Assembly (NCBI GenBank): GCA_030432295.1
Contig: JAUIHI010000034.1
Coordinates: forward strand, 1 to 64,000
Direction of reading: 5' to 3'
From: Anaerolineae bacterium
GTDB taxonomy: Bacteria > Chloroflexota > Anaerolineae > Caldilineales > Caldilineaceae
DNA: 64,000 bases
The translations under genes and the position numbers were made by a program. Under the pieces are notes generated by a model. That model did not search any database and was not told where the DNA came from. It worked only from the letters and a program-made list of their open reading frames with translations. Shown here piece after piece: positions 5,781 through 39,419 of this stretch (its first letter is position 1; each line of letters begins with the position of its first letter).

Positions 5781-7955
5781 TTACAACAATTCTTCCAGCC
5801 GTGCCCGCAGCCCAGACCGCGGAATCGCTACCCGCGCCGCCCGGTAGAGCCGTTCAAAGGCAGGCAGGTCCAATCGGTCTAGTACTGTTTCGCGTGCGAT
5901 GGCTGCGGGCAGCAGACTATGGAAACGGCCCAATTCCAGCAGTGGCTCGACACGGGGCAGCAGCCGGTAGAGGGCGCGCTGGGCCAGTCCTGCATCCCAG
6001 CCGGGGAGGGCGGGCAGTGGGCCGGGCAGATAGAGACAGAATTCGTTGACCGCCATCACTGCGCCCCCCTCGCCGCCGAAATGAGCGTCCAGCATCTCGG
6101 CAAGCAGGCTGCCGTAGACGTCCCCCCAGAAGTGAAAAAGCCACGTCCCTTCGGCCAGAGGCACGGAGAGAATCAGACTCTCGGCCAGCCCCAGCAGTGC
6201 GGCCACGGCCTGCCCGCTCTCCAGCGGCACGGCAAAGGGCGTTGTGGCAAAGCGCAGTTGATCGTCCACCGGCTTGCCGTCCTTGCGCCGAACCCCCACC
6301 CGATAGCGATCCCGCCAGACCACTTCCAGCACGTGACCGCCTAGCCGTAGGGTCTCCCCCTCCACTTTCGAGCGGGCCACTGTCGCCAATGTGCGCCCGG
6401 AAAAGGCGTCCACCAGCAGCAGAGGCAGCGGGTCGCCGCCGATGTTGGCGTAAATCTCGTACTTGTCCACCAGTTCGTCCAGCTTCTCCGCGGCCCGCCA
6501 TTCTCCCAGCCGTCCGGCGCGCAGATAGCCCTGCCGGGTCAGGTGGGCGAGGATGGCAGCCAGCGCGTCGTCCTCCACTGCGTCCGGCGCAACCCGGCGA
6601 AGATCGGCCAGACGGATGCCGCCGGTGGGGCTTTGGGCCAGAATGCTGAAGCTCTGCTGTACCAGCACAGAAGGCAGAAACCTGTACGTCGGACTGGCAG
6701 TCCGACCAGTCGAACTAACAGTTCGACCTACGGTCTCCGCAATTAGCGCCTGAAAGCGCACCTCCTCCAACGCAGAACGGGACAGGCAGAGGACCCGTGT
6801 CACGCCTGTGCGCCGTCCGCCCCGGCCAATGCGCTGCTGAAAAGAGGAGAGCGACGGCGGCGGGCCGATCAGCGCCACTTCGTCGATGCTGCCGATGTCG
6901 ATGCCCAGTTCCAGGGTGGAGGTGCTGACGCAGATGGCAACAGCGGCTTCGGCAAAGCCGTCCTCCACCTCCTGGCGCAGGGCCGTGTCCAGATTGGAGT
7001 AGTGGGTGAAGATGGCGCTCTCAAAGTACAGATTGGCGCGCAGAAAGGCCGCGGTCTGCTCCACTTCGTTGCGGCTGTTGCAGAAGACGAGGAACTTACG
7101 GGCAGCAGACTCACCGGTGGCGTGGATGGCGAGGGCCGTCGTCAGATCGTCCAGCCCAGCCAGAGGCCAAATCTCCGCGTCCAGTTCCCGGCGGCCAGGG
7201 ACGGCGATAATCTGTGTTTCACCCTCACTGGAGAACCCCACCCCAGCCCTCCCCTCAAGCGGGGAGGGAGTAGATCCCTCCGCTGATGGAGAGAGATAGC
7301 GGGCCGCGATTCCCTCCGGGTCCGGCACTGTAGCGGAGAGGGCGATGCGTTGTAGGGGGATGACGGGCAGGCCGTTGCGCTGCTGGTGATAGCTGCGGAT
7401 GTGCTCGATGCGGCGCAGCAGACAGCGCAACTGATCCCCGCGGGGTCCGCCGTCCAGCAGGTGAATCTCGTCCAGGACGATTGCCCACAATTCCGCCAGC
7501 AGCCGGGGCGCACGGGTGAGTAGGGAATCGGTGGATTCGGGGGTGGTGATCAGAACTGTCGGCGGGTTTGTGGTGGAGACCGGGCCGGTGTCGCCGCTTT
7601 TCATCGCAAAGGGGATTTCCAACTGTTCCAGCGGCAAACGCAGCCGCTCGTAGAGGTCACGCACCAGCGCCCGCGTGGGGCAAAGGTAGAGGATGGCAAT
7701 AGAAGCTCGGCTTTCAGAAGTCCGACTTTTGCCAAAAGTCGGACTTCTATTGTCCCCGAAGCAGTGGCGTTCGAGTAGCGGAACAATCGCTGCTTCGGTC
7801 TTGCCGCCCGCCGTGGCCGCGATGACGAGGGTATTGTGACCATCGAGAATGGGCGGAATGGCGGCTTCCTGCACGGGGGTAAAGCTGCCGTGACGGGCGA
7901 AGAAGGCGGTCCACGTGTGGGGCAGGCGGGATTTCAGACTGCGGGGGGTGGTCAT
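5781..7955 (-). CDS. BrxHI-like / Lhr-type superfamily II helicase
   Basis: A 724-aa DEAD/H helicase. Motif I ATAGGKTEA, Ia PTRALVRDL, Ib TTPESTDSLL, II DEIH, III LSATVPD, IV FCNSRNEVEQ, V STSTLELGIDI and VI QRIGRGGRRTG are all present, followed by a C-terminal Lhr-like winged-helix/beta region. It is the last gene of a coupled operon, overlapping the BrxD-like ATPase by ATGA. In type 2 BREX, brxD and brxHI occur together; the same pair is seen here without the core BREX genes. Three segments look like translated mobile palindromes: GDNRSPTFGKSRTSESRASI between motifs I and Ia, the PSPLEGRAGVGF segment after motif III, and GRTVSSTGRTASPTYRF after motif VI. All keep the frame. Confidence 0.85.
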   Translation of the reverse strand: MTTPRSLKSRLPHTWTAFFARHGSFTPVQEAAIPPILDGHNTLVIAATAGGKTEAAIVPLLERHCFGDNRSPTFGKSRTSESRASIAILYLCPTRALVRDLYERLRLPLEQLEIPFAMKSGDTGPVSTTNPPTVLITTPESTDSLLTRAPRLLAELWAIVLDEIHLLDGGPRGDQLRCLLRRIEHIRSYHQQRNGLPVIPLQRIALSATVPDPEGIAARYLSPSAEGSTPSPLEGRAGVGFSSEGETQIIAVPGRRELDAEIWPLAGLDDLTTALAIHATGESAARKFLVFCNSRNEVEQTAAFLRANLYFESAIFTHYSNLDTALRQEVEDGFAEAAVAICVSTSTLELGIDIGSIDEVALIGPPPSLSSFQQRIGRGGRRTGVTRVLCLSRSALEEVRFQALIAETVGRTVSSTGRTASPTYRFLPSVLVQQSFSILAQSPTGGIRLADLRRVAPDAVEDDALAAILAHLTRQGYLRAGRLGEWRAAEKLDELVDKYEIYANIGGDPLPLLLVDAFSGRTLATVARSKVEGETLRLGGHVLEVVWRDRYRVGVRRKDGKPVDDQLRFATTPFAVPLESGQAVAALLGLAESLILSVPLAEGTWLFHFWGDVYGSLLAEMLDAHFGGEGGAVMAVNEFCLYLPGPLPALPGWDAGLAQRALYRLLPRVEPLLELGRFHSLLPAAIARETVLDRLDLPAFERLYRAARVAIPRSGLRARLEELL
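6684..6732. repeat. Twin-hairpin repeat in the helicase gene
   Basis: Two consecutive palindromes, GTCGGACTGGCAGTCCGAC (6688-6706) and GTCGAACTAACAGTTCGAC (6709-6727), lie in frame inside the helicase coding sequence. Confidence 0.85.
7236..7271. repeat. CCCTCCCC-type palindrome in the helicase gene
   Basis: CCCAGCCCTCCCCTCAAGCG continues into a matching GGGGAGGGAG arm. It encodes the PSPLEGRAGVGF-like segment in frame. This repeat type is common in several bacterial groups. Confidence 0.6.
7716..7748. repeat. Palindromic repeat family A, copy 2 (inside helicase gene)
   Basis: AGAAGTCCGACTTTT, GCC, then AAAAGTCGGACTTCT: a perfect 15-bp stem, in frame between helicase motifs I and Ia. A half unit (AGAAGCTCGGCTTTC, 7701-7715) precedes it. 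Confidence 0.9.
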
Positions 7956-9358
7956 TTCATCTGAGACCGCAACTCATCCAGCAGGCTGACCACTTCGTAT
8001 TCCGGGTGCAGATAGAGCAGATCGTACAATTCCACGGCCAGGCGCACGACGGCGCGGATGTTGAGCCGGTCGTTGCGCATGCCCTGGGCCAGGTGCTCGG
8101 CCGCGCCCCGGCGCACCTGGCGCTGGCGTTCGCCCACCGCATAGCCATAGGCCAGGGCGTGATAGTCCATCACCTGTTCCAAAAAGTGACCGATTTCCTG
8201 GGGCGTGTGGTGGGGTTCCAGGGACAGCACTTTGTCGTCGTCCAGCCAGGCTTCCAGGGGGAGCCGGTTGTCGCTGCGGGTGATGGTAAACAGAAAAAAG
8301 AGGGACTGACGTTCGCCGTAGGCCACCGGGTAGTCCCGGAAGCGGTGCTGGGGCAGGTCGTCGTCGGACAACTGGGAGCGTTCCGCGCCCAGCGCGGCGT
8401 GGATCACCCCGCTGAAAAAGAGGCTGGCTTTGGGCTGTTGATAGGCTTTGAGCAGGGAATAGCTCTCGGCCTCGTCAATGAGCACACAGAGGCCGGAATA
8501 GCCAGCCAACCGGGCCAGTACACTGACGCCGCTGAGCAGATAGGCCATCTGGCGGGCGTTGTGGCCCACCCGATAAATGGATGGGAATCTCACACCCCTG
8601 GGCATAGCCCGGTTCATCGACTTGACCCGCCGCCCGCCCATCAGCCAATTCTCCCAGGCCGTCTGCTGGCGGGTGCTGGTGATGGTGCTGAGCGCGTCCA
8701 ATGCGAAGATCAACGGGTCGTGCTCCTCAGGGGCCAATTCGCGTAGTTCATCCCGCAGCCGGGGCACGCCTGCCACTGCGGCCAGCAGCGGACCCATCCC
8801 CCGTTCGTCGCTGTCCGGGTAGCGCAGGCTGCGCATAAGCGCGGCGTAGATGTCGAAGGCCCGGTGGGGGGGCAATTCCTGCAAATCCAGGCTGGCGCTG
8901 GCGACGAGAAATTTTCGTTGCAGGGCTTCCTGGCTGGTCAGTTCCACAATGTGGCTTTTGCCGTAGCCATACTCGCCGATGACCGCGCGCACGTCCCCGC
9001 CGCTCTGGTGGGTTTGGACCAACGCGCTGCCCAGGCTGGCCCGCTCACTCTCCAGGCCGATGGTCAACTCCTGGGCGTGCTGGGCCGGGGCCACACCCAC
9101 GCGCAGGGCCTCGATGAGGTTGCGGGCGTCCAGTTGACTGGGCGTCATCGGCGTGGGGGCAAAGGCGGTGGTCAGTGTGGGAGTGGTGGGGGTATTGGGC
9201 ATCTGTCCGTTGAATTCCTGGCGGGGGCGGCGAAAGCGCAGACCGCTGTCGAAGCGCACCATCCATTCCTCGCCGTTGCGAAAGAGGGCGACGATCTGGC
9301 CGGGGCCGTAGGTTGGGTGTTCGACGCGTGTACCGATCATCGAGTCTGTCTCACTCAC
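7952..9358 (-). CDS. BrxD-like (DUF2791) BREX-type ATP-binding protein
   Basis: A 468-aa P-loop ATPase. The N-terminal 60 residues form a small beta domain (VEHPTYGPGQIVALFRNG, resembling the CarD/UvrD-tail type binding fold). It is followed by LDARNLIEALRVGVAP, Walker A GEYGYGKSHI and Walker B VLIDEAES, typical of the DUF2791/BrxD family. The gene overlaps the XRE gene upstream (ATGA) and the helicase downstream (ATGA), so translation is coupled. A BrxD next to an Lhr-like BrxHI is the accessory pair of type 2 BREX. By inference it is an ATPase that loads or regulates the helicase. A second member of the family lies at 10638-11918. Confidence 0.85.
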   Translation of the reverse strand: MSETDSMIGTRVEHPTYGPGQIVALFRNGEEWMVRFDSGLRFRRPRQEFNGQMPNTPTTPTLTTAFAPTPMTPSQLDARNLIEALRVGVAPAQHAQELTIGLESERASLGSALVQTHQSGGDVRAVIGEYGYGKSHIVELTSQEALQRKFLVASASLDLQELPPHRAFDIYAALMRSLRYPDSDERGMGPLLAAVAGVPRLRDELRELAPEEHDPLIFALDALSTITSTRQQTAWENWLMGGRRVKSMNRAMPRGVRFPSIYRVGHNARQMAYLLSGVSVLARLAGYSGLCVLIDEAESYSLLKAYQQPKASLFFSGVIHAALGAERSQLSDDDLPQHRFRDYPVAYGERQSLFFLFTITRSDNRLPLEAWLDDDKVLSLEPHHTPQEIGHFLEQVMDYHALAYGYAVGERQRQVRRGAAEHLAQGMRNDRLNIRAVVRLAVELYDLLYLHPEYEVVSLLDELRSQMK

Positions 9359-10637: not shown

Positions 10638-11918
10638 TCAATAGGGCGGCGTCTCGCCCCCGGCCAGCTCGTCCACCTGGCCGCGGATGATGGCGATGGC
10701 CTCGTCTTCGGTGAGCAGATGCTCCTGGCCCGCGTGCTGCCGGGCCAGTTCAGTGATGAACGCTTTGACGAAAAGCCGCCGGTGACTCACGTCCAGAAAG
10801 ACGTCGCGAGCCACATTGGCCAGAATCACCGCGTTGGCCTGCTGGATGGGCCGGTCGAGGGTTGTCTCGAAAGCCGTTTCGTAGATGGGGATCAGCTTCT
10901 CGCCAATTGCCAGGAGCAGATCGTTCTCGTCCAAATCCAGATGATCCAGCGCTATTTGCGGGCTGAAGTGGTTGGCCCGGCTGAAACGGCCCGGCGCACG
11001 CACCCGCTGTTGCAGGGCCGGGTAGCGGGGCACAATGTCGTTGATGAACTGGGGCGGCACCGCGTAGACAAACATCGCGCCGGGCAGATCGTCCCGAGTG
11101 CGGTCGATGACCTCGCGCAGATTGTCCGTCGCCAGCTTCTCCGCCTTTCCGCCGATGCTGGACATACGGTCCACTTCGTCAAAGAGTAGAATCAGCCCGC
11201 CGTAGGAGAGGGCGCGGATGGTCTGCACCAGCGAGCGCAGCATTCGAAAGGCGTTGGTGCGGCTGATTTTACCGGTCACGCCGACCTCGCGCAGAATTTT
11301 GGTGTCGTCCGGGGTGGTGTTGGAGCCGAGCAGCCAGCGGGTGAGGGAGTCGAGCCGTTCGTCGAAGTCCCGGATCAGGGCGTCAAAATAGGCCAGGACC
11401 GCGGCCCGGTAGGCCAGGCTGTCGATGGCCGTGGATTCCAGAGTGTCCACCAGCCCCCGGTAGTTGGGATGGGTCAGCGCGTCCAGGGTGGGCGGGCCGC
11501 CCAGCACCCGTTCCAGCGTCCCTTCCAGAAAGCGGGGCAGGCCGGTCTCGTCGGAGATTTCGTCGCTCTCCTCGTGCCAGATGAGGTTGCGGGCCACCGC
11601 GGCGTAGACCAGCCGCTGGTCGTTGTAGGGAGTCTCCACCGGGCTGAGATCGACTTTGGCCACAGCAAAGCCTTTGCTCCAGGCCCGGTCGCGCAGACAG
11701 TAGAGAAAGTGGGATTTGCCGCTGCCGTAATCCCCCACCACCATTTTGTACGTCCCGCCCCCGTCCTGCAGATAGGAGGAGAGATAGTACTCGTCCAGGG
11801 CGTCGAGCAGAGAATTGTTGCCCGCGTTGAAAAATTGCACACCCCGGGCCGGTGGCGTGCCTGTGCTGCCCAGTACTTCGACGATATGGCGGGCGAGAGG
11901 GCGGGAGAGGGTCGTCAT
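10638..11918 (-). CDS. Second DUF2791 BREX-type ATPase
   Basis: A 426-aa P-loop ATPase with Walker A GDYGSGKSHF, Walker B LLFDEVDR and an R-rich C-terminal half; FFNAGNNSLLDALDEYYL precedes the P-loop as in DUF2791/BrxC-D-like proteins. It is paralogous to, but distinct from, the 7952-9358 ATPase, which suggests a hetero-oligomeric AAA-like assembly. It lies downstream of the 293-aa gene after a 176-base gap containing an inverted repeat, and upstream of the hairpin and TA-like trio. By inference it works with the helicase and the other ATPase on DNA. Confidence 0.8.
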   Translation of the reverse strand: MTTLSRPLARHIVEVLGSTGTPPARGVQFFNAGNNSLLDALDEYYLSSYLQDGGGTYKMVVGDYGSGKSHFLYCLRDRAWSKGFAVAKVDLSPVETPYNDQRLVYAAVARNLIWHEESDEISDETGLPRFLEGTLERVLGGPPTLDALTHPNYRGLVDTLESTAIDSLAYRAAVLAYFDALIRDFDERLDSLTRWLLGSNTTPDDTKILREVGVTGKISRTNAFRMLRSLVQTIRALSYGGLILLFDEVDRMSSIGGKAEKLATDNLREVIDRTRDDLPGAMFVYAVPPQFINDIVPRYPALQQRVRAPGRFSRANHFSPQIALDHLDLDENDLLLAIGEKLIPIYETAFETTLDRPIQQANAVILANVARDVFLDVSHRRLFVKAFITELARQHAGQEHLLTEDEAIAIIRGQVDELAGGETPPY

Positions 11919-15584: not shown

Positions 15585-15613
15585 AGAAAACTGGGCGGCG
15601 TGCGCCCAGTTTG
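15585..15613 (-). terminator. Rho-independent terminator downstream of the HEPN cassette
   Basis: The minus strand has a nine-base stem AAACTGGGC / GCCCAGTTT with a seven-base loop followed by a T-rich TTTTCTTTTC run. It would end leftward transcripts of the HEPN gene just before the hydrolase promoter. Confidence 0.6.
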
Positions 15614-15655
15614 TGTGGTGTGGGTGGGTGTGGGTTGCTGTCCTAACGCTCGATG

Positions 15656-15789
15656 CACCTAACGATGAGCATCACCGGATTGTGCGGATAATGCCCGTGA
15701 ATTTCACCTGAAAAATAGATTGGATTTTCACCCGAAAGCTGTTCGAAGGGAAAGCGTAGCACAATTCCGAGTGCATGCAAAGTTAGGTG
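15656..15789 (-). other. attC-like integron recombination site
   Basis: On the minus strand the outer boxes are CACCTAAC (15789-15782) and GTTAGGTG (15663-15656). Inside them GCATGCACTCGGAATTGTGC pairs with the complement of GCACAATCCGGTGATGC, leaving three unpaired single bases (G, T, A) on one side only: the extrahelical bases typical of attC. The centre (about 60 bases) contains further hairpins. Total 134 bases, in the size range of VCR-type attC sites. It begins three bases after the HEPN stop codon. Confidence 0.75.
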
Positions 15790-15791
15790 TT

Positions 15792-16658
15792 TTATACTGA
15801 ATTTATTTCATTTTTTGATAGTTGAAATAATGCAGCCTTCAATACTTGCCAAGAAATTTTCGCAGTATGTTTATCAGGGTTAAATTTGGAACCCATTTGT
15901 TGATAAGGATGTATGTAATTCCGAAAGTTCCTTAAAGTGTGGCTGTATTTTCTCACATCTTCCGCAAGAAGCCCTACTTCATATGCTACATCAATAAAAC
16001 TGCTTAACGTCCAATCTGGATATTGCCTTACTTTCCCATCTTTATCTTTCGGTGACGATTTTGATTGATTGAACTCTCTCGGATGCTTTAAAGCGACTCC
16101 AAGTAAAACGCCTTCAAGTGTACTACCTGCAAGAAAAATCACAGAAAGAGGAGCATCTGCGGACAAGCATTTTTCAATTTCATTTATTCTGAGTTTTATG
16201 ATTTCGGTAATAGTACCATCTAACCCGATGCTTTCAACCGAAACTTCTTGAAATTCTTTTCTTAGAAACTCATCTTCGCTAGTAGCAGGCGAACTTTCGT
16301 CAAATTCTACTTGTTCAAGTCGAACAAAGCTAATTTCCTCTCTATTTCTAATGATCTTCCATTTGTCAAAGGCAAGGTATTGGTTAAAATCTTTAATGAA
16401 ACCATCCAAATCCCCAATTCGACCGATAAAATTTACAGGAGAAAACAACGCCTTGATGCATTTATCCAATTCTGGTTGCCCATTGATCCTTGCCAATCTG
16501 TCGTCAGTATATGATGCTCTTGAAGGAAATCCTTGCCCATATGTATCTCTGAACCCTATTTCATTGAAGAATTGTACTAATTGAGGACCTGAGCGATATT
16601 GTGTTTCTTCATTAATCAATAACCTGAGTTTTTCGAGTGACTTACTTTGCAGAATCAT
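15792..16658 (-). CDS. HEPN-domain AbiJ-like putative abortive-infection protein (cassette ORF)
   Basis: A 288-aa soluble protein. The C-terminal half ends with LRNFRNYIHPYQQ, an R-x6-H HEPN ribonuclease-type motif (about R243/H250) in the usual helical context. The N-terminal half (SGPQLVQFFNEIGFRDTYG; FPSRASYTDDRL) resembles the N-terminal domains of AbiJ-type abortive-infection proteins; this is recalled and unverified. Codon use and base composition are AT-rich, unlike the surrounding genes. The single ORF lies inside an integron-cassette-like unit, its stop codon three bases from the attC site. A role in phage defence through RNA cleavage is inferred. Confidence 0.7.
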   Translation of the reverse strand: MILQSKSLEKLRLLINEETQYRSGPQLVQFFNEIGFRDTYGQGFPSRASYTDDRLARINGQPELDKCIKALFSPVNFIGRIGDLDGFIKDFNQYLAFDKWKIIRNREEISFVRLEQVEFDESSPATSEDEFLRKEFQEVSVESIGLDGTITEIIKLRINEIEKCLSADAPLSVIFLAGSTLEGVLLGVALKHPREFNQSKSSPKDKDGKVRQYPDWTLSSFIDVAYEVGLLAEDVRKYSHTLRNFRNYIHPYQQMGSKFNPDKHTAKISWQVLKAALFQLSKNEINSV

Positions 16659-16964
16659 TTAACCCTCTAACAATGTTTTGAATGTTGTGGACGAACACCT
16701 AACTATCATTATCTGGCAACTGACAACAATAACTCTAGCACAGAGCGATTTGGCCTGCAACAGACTGCGCGAATCCACACTTGGATGTGTTATCTGCCAA
16801 ACGAAAATATAGCTCGTCTCTGGCGACTAATGGGACAATTCTGCCCCCCCATTCACCCCCCCCCCGTCACCGGCTTGACCGGCAGCCCGGTGCGGGTGGA
16901 TGTCGGTTCTCTCATTCCCCAATCGCCGCTGGCATCACATCCGGCGCATCGCAGAATTTCACAT
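16659..16964. other. Intergenic region at the cassette boundary
   Basis: 306 bases. It holds the cassette core GTTAGGTG (16703-16696, minus) and a C-rich tract near 16845-16866. Beyond 16700 no second attC structure was found. No gene or clear promoter is visible. Confidence 0.45.
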
Positions 16965-17483
16965 TCAGGCGTCTCGCACGATAGCCAGATGCTCTCGTAT
17001 TGCCTTTGGGTTCAAATCGAAACGCGCCGCATTGCGCAAAGCATTCTGCACCACAATTTCAAGTTGTTCAACCGAAATCAGATTCCGTCGAAGCAAGAAC
17101 TGAATATCTTCGAGATCAGACGCAAAGCCCCGGTCCAGCTTGCTCAGGGCAATCGTATAAGGGTCCAGCACAAAGACTGCAACCTGACCGTATTGACCAA
17201 TGGATATCCGCCGACTGTCTGCATCAGCAGGAATGGGTATGAATTCCCCAATCGGGACGGGGTCGATGATAAGCCTGAGGTCGTCGGCCAATTGGCCGAT
17301 GACCTGTTGAAACTCATTCTGTCGGAGATCATCGCCCACATAATCGATGTCGGCAGTGGGACGTTCACTTCCCAACAGGCACAATGCGCTGCCTCCCAGC
17401 AAAACTACAGTTGCTGGTCTGGTATAACGGCGTGCCAGTTCCGTCAGGAATAGATGGATTTGCTCGGATGTGATATTTGCCAT
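16965..17483 (-). CDS. DUF6036-like nucleotidyltransferase
   Basis: A 172-aa protein with LLGGSALCLLGSERPTADID, i.e. Gly-Gly-Ser and Asp-x-Asp of the minimal nucleotidyltransferase fold, then KLDRGFASDLEDIQFLL as in DUF6036/AbiEii proteins. It overlaps the preceding ORF by 40 bases. This arrangement resembles nucleotidyltransferase toxin-antitoxin modules; which partner is toxic is unknown. It is a different lineage from the enzyme at 9705-10295. Confidence 0.75.
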   Translation of the reverse strand: MANITSEQIHLFLTELARRYTRPATVVLLGGSALCLLGSERPTADIDYVGDDLRQNEFQQVIGQLADDLRLIIDPVPIGEFIPIPADADSRRISIGQYGQVAVFVLDPYTIALSKLDRGFASDLEDIQFLLRRNLISVEQLEIVVQNALRNAARFDLNPKAIREHLAIVRDA

Positions 17484-18025
17484 CGTTTCTCGTGTTCAGT
17501 GAAACGCAGCCAATTCTGCGCGGCGTGTTCATATGTGCCCAGCCAATTGAGGGTGATTCCCGAAAGCTCCCGCTGGCGCTGGGCGAGGAGGGGCAGGGCA
17601 CTATCTGGTTCTGTCTGCCCTGTGATGCCCAGCGTTTCACCGAAAAGATCGGGGAGCGGGGGCTGAGAACCGCAGACGGCTTCCAGTCGCGTGCGATATT
17701 TGGCCTGCAGCCAAACCGCAGCCGTATAGGAACAGCGCAACACCACAGCATCTTTGGCAAGCAACGACTGCGCTGCGGGGCGAACCTCCGGGGCAAACTC
17801 CGGATGGGCGAGGAAGAGGGGAATCAGCGCCATGCGTAAACGGGCTTCCAGGCTGGATGCCAGGGCTGCTATCAATACAGCAGGCGAAAAGTTTCGGGTC
17901 GCGCCGCTGCCGCCCCGTAGGAAGCAGACGCCGAGGGTATCCAGGGCATCTACCAGTTCCGTGGGTGATATTGTATTGTCAAACCCCTGTGACTTAACAG
18001 GCACGGATTGCCTTTCCACTATCAC
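17444..18025 (-). CDS. Putative partner of the nucleotidyltransferase
   Basis: A 193-aa helical protein without a recognised domain (LEARLRMALIPLFLAHPEFA; AAVWLQAKYRTRLE). It overlaps the end of the fucosidase gene by four bases (ATGA-like coupling) and the nucleotidyltransferase gene by 40 bases. Proteins of this kind, with a 'lipLfLahPe' pattern, are recalled as upstream companions of DUF6036 genes. An antitoxin or helical toxin role is inferred from position only. Confidence 0.6.
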   Translation of the reverse strand: MIVERQSVPVKSQGFDNTISPTELVDALDTLGVCFLRGGSGATRNFSPAVLIAALASSLEARLRMALIPLFLAHPEFAPEVRPAAQSLLAKDAVVLRCSYTAAVWLQAKYRTRLEAVCGSQPPLPDLFGETLGITGQTEPDSALPLLAQRQRELSGITLNWLGTYEHAAQNWLRFTEHEKRWQISHPSKSIYS

Positions 18026-37797: not shown

Positions 37798-38607
37798 ATG
37801 GATCTGCTGTCGTCGCCCTTTCCGGGGATGGACCCCTTTCTGGAAAAGCCAGCCGAGTGGCAGAGCGTCCACTTTCAACTGATCGCGCGCATCAGCGATA
37901 TCCTGAGCGAAGCGGTTGCGCCCGACTATTTCGTCCGGGTGGATCAGCGGGTCTACGTAACCACCCCAGGAGATTCGGATCGGCGTGCCATCGAACCGGA
38001 TGTTTATCTCCTGCGCCAATCGTCCGCGCCCTATCAAACGGCTGTGGCTGCGCCGGGCGTGACGCCTTTTGTCCTCGTCGAGGCCGCGGAGATCGACCCG
38101 GAAATTCGAGACTCATTCATCGAAATCCGCGATGCCAACAGCCGGGAAGTGGTGACTACCATCGAAATTCTCTCCCCCTTCAATAAGCGTCCCGGCGCAC
38201 AGGGCTTTGACGCCTTTCAGAACAAACGCAGCGCGGTGATGGCCTCCCAGACCCACTGGATTGAGATCGATCTGCTGCGGGCTGGCGCGCGTCCCGCCCA
38301 GGTGGCGAACAGCGGCGATTATTACGCGCTGCTGAAACGGAGTGATCAGCCGCACTCGCTGGCCGTCTGGTTCTTCAACCTGCAAGACCGGATGCCGACG
38401 ATTGCCGTGCCCCTGCGCCCACCCCACGCCGATGTCGCTCTGAATTTACAGGCGGTGTGGGACGAAATGTACCGACGCGCCCGCTACGCATATAGCATCG
38501 ACTATAGCCAGCCAGCGCCACCGCCGCCTCTGCGCCCCGACGACAGACGCTGGGCCGAGGAACACATTCAACGCTGGCAGATAACTCGCGAAGGTGAGGC
38601 CCAATGA
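37798..38607 (+). CDS. DUF4058 family protein
   Basis: A 269-aa protein. FPGMDPFLEKPAEWQSVHFQ and LISDILSEAVAPDYFVRVD-like residues are the hallmark of DUF4058, common in cyanobacteria and Chloroflexota. The core (EPDVYLLRQ; ETRD-like FIEIRDANSREVVTTIEILS) recalls Uma2/PD-(D/E)xK-like folds, but nuclease activity is not shown. AAGGAGA precedes the ATG. It overlaps the following AAA ATPase gene by four bases, suggesting they act together. Confidence 0.85.
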   Translation: MDLLSSPFPGMDPFLEKPAEWQSVHFQLIARISDILSEAVAPDYFVRVDQRVYVTTPGDSDRRAIEPDVYLLRQSSAPYQTAVAAPGVTPFVLVEAAEIDPEIRDSFIEIRDANSREVVTTIEILSPFNKRPGAQGFDAFQNKRSAVMASQTHWIEIDLLRAGARPAQVANSGDYYALLKRSDQPHSLAVWFFNLQDRMPTIAVPLRPPHADVALNLQAVWDEMYRRARYAYSIDYSQPAPPPPLRPDDRRWAEEHIQRWQITREGEAQ

Positions 38608-39419
38608 TTCACCTGACATCGGTCGAGCGCAAACCCTCTTTCCCCCAGGCCCGGGACGAATACCCCTACAACGTGCCGGTGATCGCCCGGTTGGATGGCG
38701 TGCGCTTTGAGACGCCTGTCACTTTTCTTGTGGGCGAGAACGGGTCGGGCAAATCGACACTGATGGAGATGATCGCGGCGGGCAGCCGTTTGCCCGCAGT
38801 GGGCGCGTCGGATGTAGACCGGGACGACTCTCTGGCCCCGGCCCGCAAACTGGCCCGCTCGTTCACCTTTGGCTGGGCCAAGCGCAACCACCGGGGCTTC
38901 TTTCTGCGGGCCGAGGATTTCTTCGGCTTTGCCCGACGCATGGCCGCCCTGGAAAAGGAGTTGGAGGCTGATCTGGCCGCGGTGGACGAGGAATACGCGG
39001 GCCGCTCGGACTACGCCAGGGGTCTGGCCCGGATGCCCCACGCCGGTGAACTGGCCGCCATCCGCTCTCGCTATGGAGACGGATTGGACGCCCGCTCCCA
39101 CGGCGAGAGCTTTCTGGCCCTCTTTCAGGCCCGCTTTGTGCCCGGTGGTCTCTATCTGTTGGACGAGCCGGAAGCGCCCCTTTCGCCCCTGCGACAGGTC
39201 GGTTTTCTGGCCCTGCTCCACGAAATGGTGCAACGGGATGCCCAATTTATCATCGCCACCCATTCACCGATTCTGATGGCCTATCCCGGCGCAACAATCC
39301 TGAGCTTTGACGAAGTGCCCCCCCGGGCCGTGCCCTGGGCGCAGTTGGAGCACGTCGCTATCACCCGGGATTTTCTCAACCAGCCCGATGCATTCCTCGC
39401 CAATCTGTTGGGAAGATAG
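38604..39419 (+). CDS. AAA/ABC-type ATPase (SMC-like head, AAA_21/23)
   Basis: A 271-aa soluble ATPase with Walker A VGENGSGKST, a signature-like RSHGESFLALF, Walker B LYLLDEPEAPLSP and FIIATHSPIL (switch His). It lacks a long coiled coil and membrane partner, so it is a stand-alone OLD/RecF-like head of the type used in DNA transactions or regulation. Coupled to DUF4058. Confidence 0.85.
   Translation: MIHLTSVERKPSFPQARDEYPYNVPVIARLDGVRFETPVTFLVGENGSGKSTLMEMIAAGSRLPAVGASDVDRDDSLAPARKLARSFTFGWAKRNHRGFFLRAEDFFGFARRMAALEKELEADLAAVDEEYAGRSDYARGLARMPHAGELAAIRSRYGDGLDARSHGESFLALFQARFVPGGLYLLDEPEAPLSPLRQVGFLALLHEMVQRDAQFIIATHSPILMAYPGATILSFDEVPPRAVPWAQLEHVAITRDFLNQPDAFLANLLGR

Follow-up and report, generated by a model that had tools for sequence, protein, structure and literature searches.

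Single attC sites without an integrase, insertions at attG sites and attI-type cassettes in mobile integrons are already known (PMC9024848, PMC12901181). Clusters of at least two attC sites that lack an integrase are referred to as CALINs (PMC9024848), the attI1 site, which includes L and R boxes, measures 65 bp (PMC12901181), and deltaattI-type gene cassettes are unusual units of the order attI-gene-attI (PMC12901181). The locus described here lies in a 64-kb window, the whole stretch of DNA that was analysed, and is closest to the one-attC limit of a CALIN as treated by IntegronFinder (PMC9024848), with which it shares an ORF followed by an attC of the order R''/L''/L'/R', the polarity of both, and the lack of an intI nearby or elsewhere in the genome. 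The window holds one attC, and its cassette differs from such a site in that it resides in a recognisable attI-like promoter platform repeated within the genome rather than being a bare array remnant. Similarly, the platform resembles the attI-Pc region of complete integrons in its length, in a core ending in G|TTRRRY and in a promoter that would read into the cassette, but no intI lies beside the attI-like site of the window, and the elements as a group have no adjacent intI and occur in two to eight copies per genome. Tandem units in two relatives (G017 C16 and G005 C10) may be compared to deltaattI-type cassettes, as an element precedes each unit, which is thus flanked by attI-like sites and not by attC; in contrast to the known examples, these are chromosomal, integrase-free, natural tandem sets of an environmental clade, known from sequence alone. 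As far as attG insertion is outlined where it is cited in PMC12901181, it likewise places a cassette outside an integrase-linked array, attG being, however, a scattered degenerate site, whereas the site here is conserved, repeated and similar to attI. In the open literature, mainly at the level of titles and abstracts, we found no description that matches dispersed integrase-free attI-promoter elements, which is no proof of their absence.

We propose, with a probability of roughly three in four, that a cassette has entered an orphan platform, which bears a promoter and resembles attI, at its crossover point, and that this platform belongs to a small dispersed family in a clade without intact intI. 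Integron searches are directed at intI and at clusters of attC, and both miss orphan attI-promoter sites that carry a single cassette or cargo without attC. If the elements are functional, a lineage that has no integrase of its own could take up and express cassettes at several places on its chromosome, and this would add to the known ways for defence and resistance-type genes to become established in genomes. The element family also provides a testable set of natural attI variants together with a candidate integrase type.

The cassette and its attC

Anatomy, polarity, composition and site context support the view that the feature in the window (Table 1) is a genuine single integron gene cassette, whose excision and integration by an IntI are predicted. 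The original prediction of an ORF bounded by two core sites was confirmed by a motif search, which located GTTAGGTG at 16696-16703(-) and 15656-15663(-) and also at 15782-15789(+), with 5 matches in the window where 0.74 are expected. The cassette consists of one ORF in the attI-to-attC direction and, as this ORF is encoded on the minus strand, the attC is found at the low-coordinate end. With a GC content of 36.3% compared to 59.4% for the window, the ORF is AT-rich, as had been claimed. Its TAA stop codon is located 2 nt from the CACCTAAC box, well in line with the predicted distance of up to three bases, and the structure that follows is exactly 134 nt long as proposed, its outer R boxes CACCTAAC and GTTAGGTG pairing over 8 bp and comprising the RYYYAAC and GTTRRRY boxes. 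The inner stem, GCAT(G)CAC(T)CGG(A)ATTGTGC or an equivalent register, contains single bulges, three in L'' and none in L', and thus shows the three extrahelical bases on one side that had been noticed before.

Table 1. Positions of the features at the window locus, and examples of a palindromic repeat of the same genome
Feature	Position	Strand	Basis
attI-promoter element (Pc-like promoter and attI-like site), upstream of the cassette	16701..16785	-	profile match of 66 bits at 16701-16763
Promoter-like hexamers TTGCAG, 17 nt, TAGAGT (TG before the second), conserved across copies	16732..16760	-	sequence and alignment
Upstream core site GTTAGGTG; crossover point after G at 16703 (G|TTAGGTG)	16696..16703	-	motif search
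Gene cassette, 1,040 bp (TTAGGTG ... G of R')	15663..16702	-	two bounding core sites
Cassette ORF, 288 aa; SD-like AGAGGG before ATG	15792..16658	-	ORF list
attC, 134 nt: R'' CACCTAAC, L''/L' stem with 3 extrahelical bases, R' GTTAGGTG	15656..15789	-	attC scan, stem analysis
Hairpin and T run, intrinsic-terminator-like, 44 bp beyond the cassette	15588..15612	-	terminator scan (two in the region, against a chance expectation of 1.8)
Repeat TTTCAACGCAAAG...CTTTGCGTTGAAA, examples in G000	L205 5852-5939, L210 17755-17834, L220 5013-5091 and others		

The scan for attC sites was carried out with a purpose-written script that scores the R boxes and the bulged L stem and is not a published covariance model. 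On this scale the site received 33.5-35, a value above all shuffled windows, which reached 20 at most with the first scoring and stayed below 20 with the second, in agreement with the full attC anatomy that had been assigned to it. The stretch 15656-15789 was the only clear match in the window; a second candidate at 38566-38696 had scored 22 in the first scan and was gone under the better scoring. An Rfam search of the window gave no match, and close copies of the attC DNA were not convincingly detected in this genome (G000) or in 36 relatives. It might be argued that the structure has nothing to do with integrons and is a chance inverted repeat or a terminator beside an AT-rich, horizontally acquired gene, as other palindromes of the genome, such as the TTTCAACGCAAAG family, can mimic attC boxes, and as no attC was found at the gene end in 29 loci that carry homologues of the ORF elsewhere. 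However, such a coincidence would leave the score above the shuffles, the exact R-box consensus, the three extrahelical bases on the canonical arm and the core sites at both boundaries without explanation, and we regard it as exceedingly improbable. Just past the attC, at 15643-15663(-), there is a second GTTAGG (GTTAGGTGCATCGAGCGTTAGGAC), which may be the remnant of another attC end.

Collinear flanks of native composition in related genomes had been named as an observation that would speak against a cassette. A dienelactone-hydrolase-type neighbour gene is indeed common to relatives, but other DNA lies at the position of the cassette, and in two of the genomes (G001 and G004) the sequence by the gene beyond the locus is common as well, with different DNA in between. 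Thus, the locus is a variable spot. The element is immediately preceded by a nucleotidyltransferase-like gene (DUF6036, with a weak match to AbiEii) and a partner ORF, at 16965-17483 and 17444-18025 (-); as DNA similar to this pair occurs elsewhere in G006 and G001, the pair may be mobile and toxin-antitoxin-like.

The repeated element and its likeness to attI

The 5' boundary of the cassette abuts an element with a length of 65-85 bp. In DNA searches with the window locus, a stretch of about 72 bp that ends at the GTT of the cassette start recurs in relatives, and the sequence following it differs each time. A model built from sequence only identified 25 copies of the element, including that of the window, across six genomes: four copies in G000 (C34, which is that of the window, C18:239072-239133, C18:283205-283260 and C7:142135-142194) and two to eight in each of five relatives (G001, G003, G005, G017 and, more weakly, G018). 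Beyond these six, the 396 genomes of the class yielded one marginal partial match at E<=0.01, and a deeper search of nine genomes revealed no convincing new copies. The consensus is made up of TTGC(AG)-17-TACAGT-like hexamers and a conserved TTATTTTGTCAATTGCTGGATAATGATAG|TT, and a TTCGCGC-like sequence further upstream is common to several copies. As a generic consensus promoter scan did not list 16732..16760, we infer the promoter function of the hexamers. GTTRRRY directly follows 7 of 15 copies (binomial p=1.5e-5), while some copies deviate and several are without GTT. One element of a relative (L111 5055-5274, G017:C146) is broken by a palindromic CCAACCCC... insert between two copies of GTCAATTGYTGGATAATGRTA.

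The upstream regions of 36 intI genes, taken to a length of up to 320 bp and in the direction leading away from intI, were searched for similarity to the 31-nt core of the element. The best matches, 23 of 31 positions each, were obtained for G019:C10 and G015:C5; the next best reached 18, and a value of 23 did not occur in any of 200 shuffles of either region. The two sites agree in their offset of 156-157 nt, counted from where the intI match starts, and both read away from it. The two integrons belong to the same family as G000, both encode an IntI, and these integrases are 72% identical to each other, more than either is to the others compared.

An IntI was not found in G000 itself (6.7 Mb in 61 contigs, with a listed completeness of 100%), where the best match to TIGR02249 amounted to 55 bits compared to a cut-off of 265; weak matches of this kind were also present in 14 of 14 control genomes. 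The lack of a nearby integrase that had been noted therefore extends to the whole assembly. The view of the cassette as unusual for its lineage needs correction as far as integrases are concerned, since the IntI cut-off is exceeded in 98 of the 396 genomes of the class and, within the family, in 6 of 46, including G006 of the same genus as G000. As integrases are common in family and class, their absence is a trait of G000 and its closest element-bearing relatives and not of the lineage. Among the genomes compared, all of them draft assemblies, no cognate integrase coexists with the elements, as G006 possesses an IntI and no convincing element, and the IntI of G017 is broken.

An attI-like site with a cassette but no intI might also be what is left of an ordinary integron that has lost its integrase in place and retained attI and one cassette, and complete integrons do occur in relatives of the same family. 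Such decay is, however, hard to reconcile with the presence of several copies per genome that are dispersed and have different genes upstream, with the lack of any intI-like match within 4 kb of each of the 25 elements, and with the genes upstream of the window element, which read towards it, unlike an intI; we therefore consider it quite improbable. Under the orphan-platform reading, an IntI of the type that is still present in the sister genera (G015, G019) would act in trans and would since have been lost, or would have been present only transiently. Recombination at G|TT would join the attC of a circular cassette to the attI-like site, the promoter of the element would then read the ORF, and the transcript might end at the hairpin at 15612-15588.

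Cargo downstream of the elements

Pairs of related loci indicate how the cargo changes at the crossover point. The orthologous loci G001 C146 and G003 C560 are 82% identical over 1,499 columns. This homology extends through the element, with identity down to about 65% over the final 200 bp ahead of the site, and in both loci it stops 4 bp short of the crossover G; the genes downstream of the crossover are unrelated. Similarly, upstream flank and element are in common, and the cargo is different, in G005 C18 and G003 C63 as well as in G000 C18a and G005 C10a. Compared to G001, one whole unit is inserted in G005. It was weighed as proof that cassettes of the attI type insert, and rejected, because its junction is situated far upstream of the crossover point and could also have arisen by homologous recombination of the repeated flanks.

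Sites of the attC type with canonical polarity, five in total, were identified downstream of four elements. In addition to that of the window, these are an attC of 81 nt at G000 C18b, 1.3 kb downstream of the element and after an ORF of 422 aa, one of 121 nt at G005 C18, after an alpha/beta-hydrolase-like ORF, and two of 64 nt and 129 nt at G017 C140, the shorter of which was chosen by eye and has a weak stem. All 11 extrahelical bases of the five sites reside on L'' and none on L'. The cassette had been called a lone one; it rather occupies one of the four attI-like elements of G000, another of which is followed by a further cassette that has an attC of its own. In 864 kb of G000 that were scanned, these two were the only genuine attCs, both at most 1.4 kb downstream of an element, and the remaining matches of a relaxed scan turned out on inspection to be members of the TTTCAACGCAAAG palindrome family or terminators. 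This repeat, TTTCAACGCAAAG...CTTTGCGTTGAAA, is abundant in the genome, with about 10 copies per 864 kb scanned, and mimics attC boxes in relaxed scans. Most elements are followed by cargo without a recognisable attC, in several cases in tandem (G017 C16, G005 C10), which includes Arr-, MarR-, YdeI- and GyrI-like genes and hydrolase genes, as named from their sequences. For three of the four G000 elements, the GC content of the first cargo gene is clearly below that of the upstream DNA.

The missing attC after most elements, the missing GTT in several and the lack of a coexisting cognate integrase all speak against orphan attI sites, and a shared promoter with varied stress-type cargo could also fit the promoter of a regulon. 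The main alternative is that the repeats of 65-85 bp serve a stress or resistance regulon as promoters instead of being attI, and that the cassette entered an incidental attG-type site within a native promoter. The conserved promoter-like core of the repeats and the kinds of genes downstream of them agree with this, and attG insertion is, by the account cited in PMC12901181, an established phenomenon. However, a regulon explains neither the likeness to two attI sites that are linked to an integrase and agree in their offset nor the excess of GTTRRRY, and the attCs at four separate copies and the change of cargo at the crossover between orthologous loci are likewise left over. As coincidence would have to account for the resemblance to attI, for the attCs and also for the breakpoint, we judge the regulon explanation to be unlikely.

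Starting from the orphan platform, it might further be speculated that dispersed, integrase-free attI-promoter elements have largely taken over the role of attC in this clade. The tandem units of element and gene would then behave as attI-type cassettes, and their gain, loss and reordering between genomes would be served in trans by a mobile or transient IntI. This extension is tentative, and we would sooner doubt than accept it. In the tandem units of G017:C16 (L110) and G005:C10 (L183), which each start with an attI-promoter-like element, Arr-like, MarR-like and DUF1059-like genes are common to both loci and differ in order between the two genera, resembling a shuffled array without attC.

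The cassette ORF and its predicted HEPN fold

The protein of 288 aa encoded by the cassette is composed of an N-terminal helical domain and a C-terminal HEPN-fold domain with the motif R-x6-H (R243...H250). An AlphaFold2 model was obtained with a mean pLDDT of 86 and a pTM of 0.55, and the best 17 structural matches in the PDB to about residues 145-286 of this model had Z values of 8.2-10.1, followed by Csm6. Judging by their titles and our prior knowledge, we take all 17 to be HEPN or HEPN-containing chains. Z values in this range are only moderate for helical domains, and Foldseek alone did not return a significant E-value for the model (E>0.9), and the motif is therefore important support for HEPN: as R-x4-6-H it is retained among 13 homologues, with R243 in at least 90% of them and H250 invariant. 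Model and motif thus support a HEPN fold for the C-terminal half.

Fold and conserved R-x6-H motif are shared with HEPN-domain defence proteins (HEPN-MNT toxins, AbiA and the HEPN domains of Csm6), whereas the ORF itself is without a match in Pfam or NCBIfam; 6 of 13 members of its family weakly matched DUF4145, and a PDB sequence search with the family found none. PADLOC gave an N-terminal match to Stk2 (E=2e-9) and returned AbiJ at E=0.022 over 35 residues. Of the predicted HEPN/AbiJ-like character, the HEPN part is accordingly borne out by fold model and motif, while the likeness to AbiJ is weak. Homologues of the ORF are spread over many phyla, and in at least 6 of 9 loci tested they are adjoined by candidate defence or restriction-modification genes, among the neighbours being PDC-S58/ApeA-like genes, type II, IIG and III methylases and AbiH. 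Fold and neighbours of the homologues suggest that the cassette gene is likely to function in defence. Elsewhere in the window, two P-loop ATP-binding proteins of BrxD/DUF2791-like appearance are encoded at 7952-9358 and 10638-11918 (-), with an HTH gene and others between them, and this region is possibly a defence locus.
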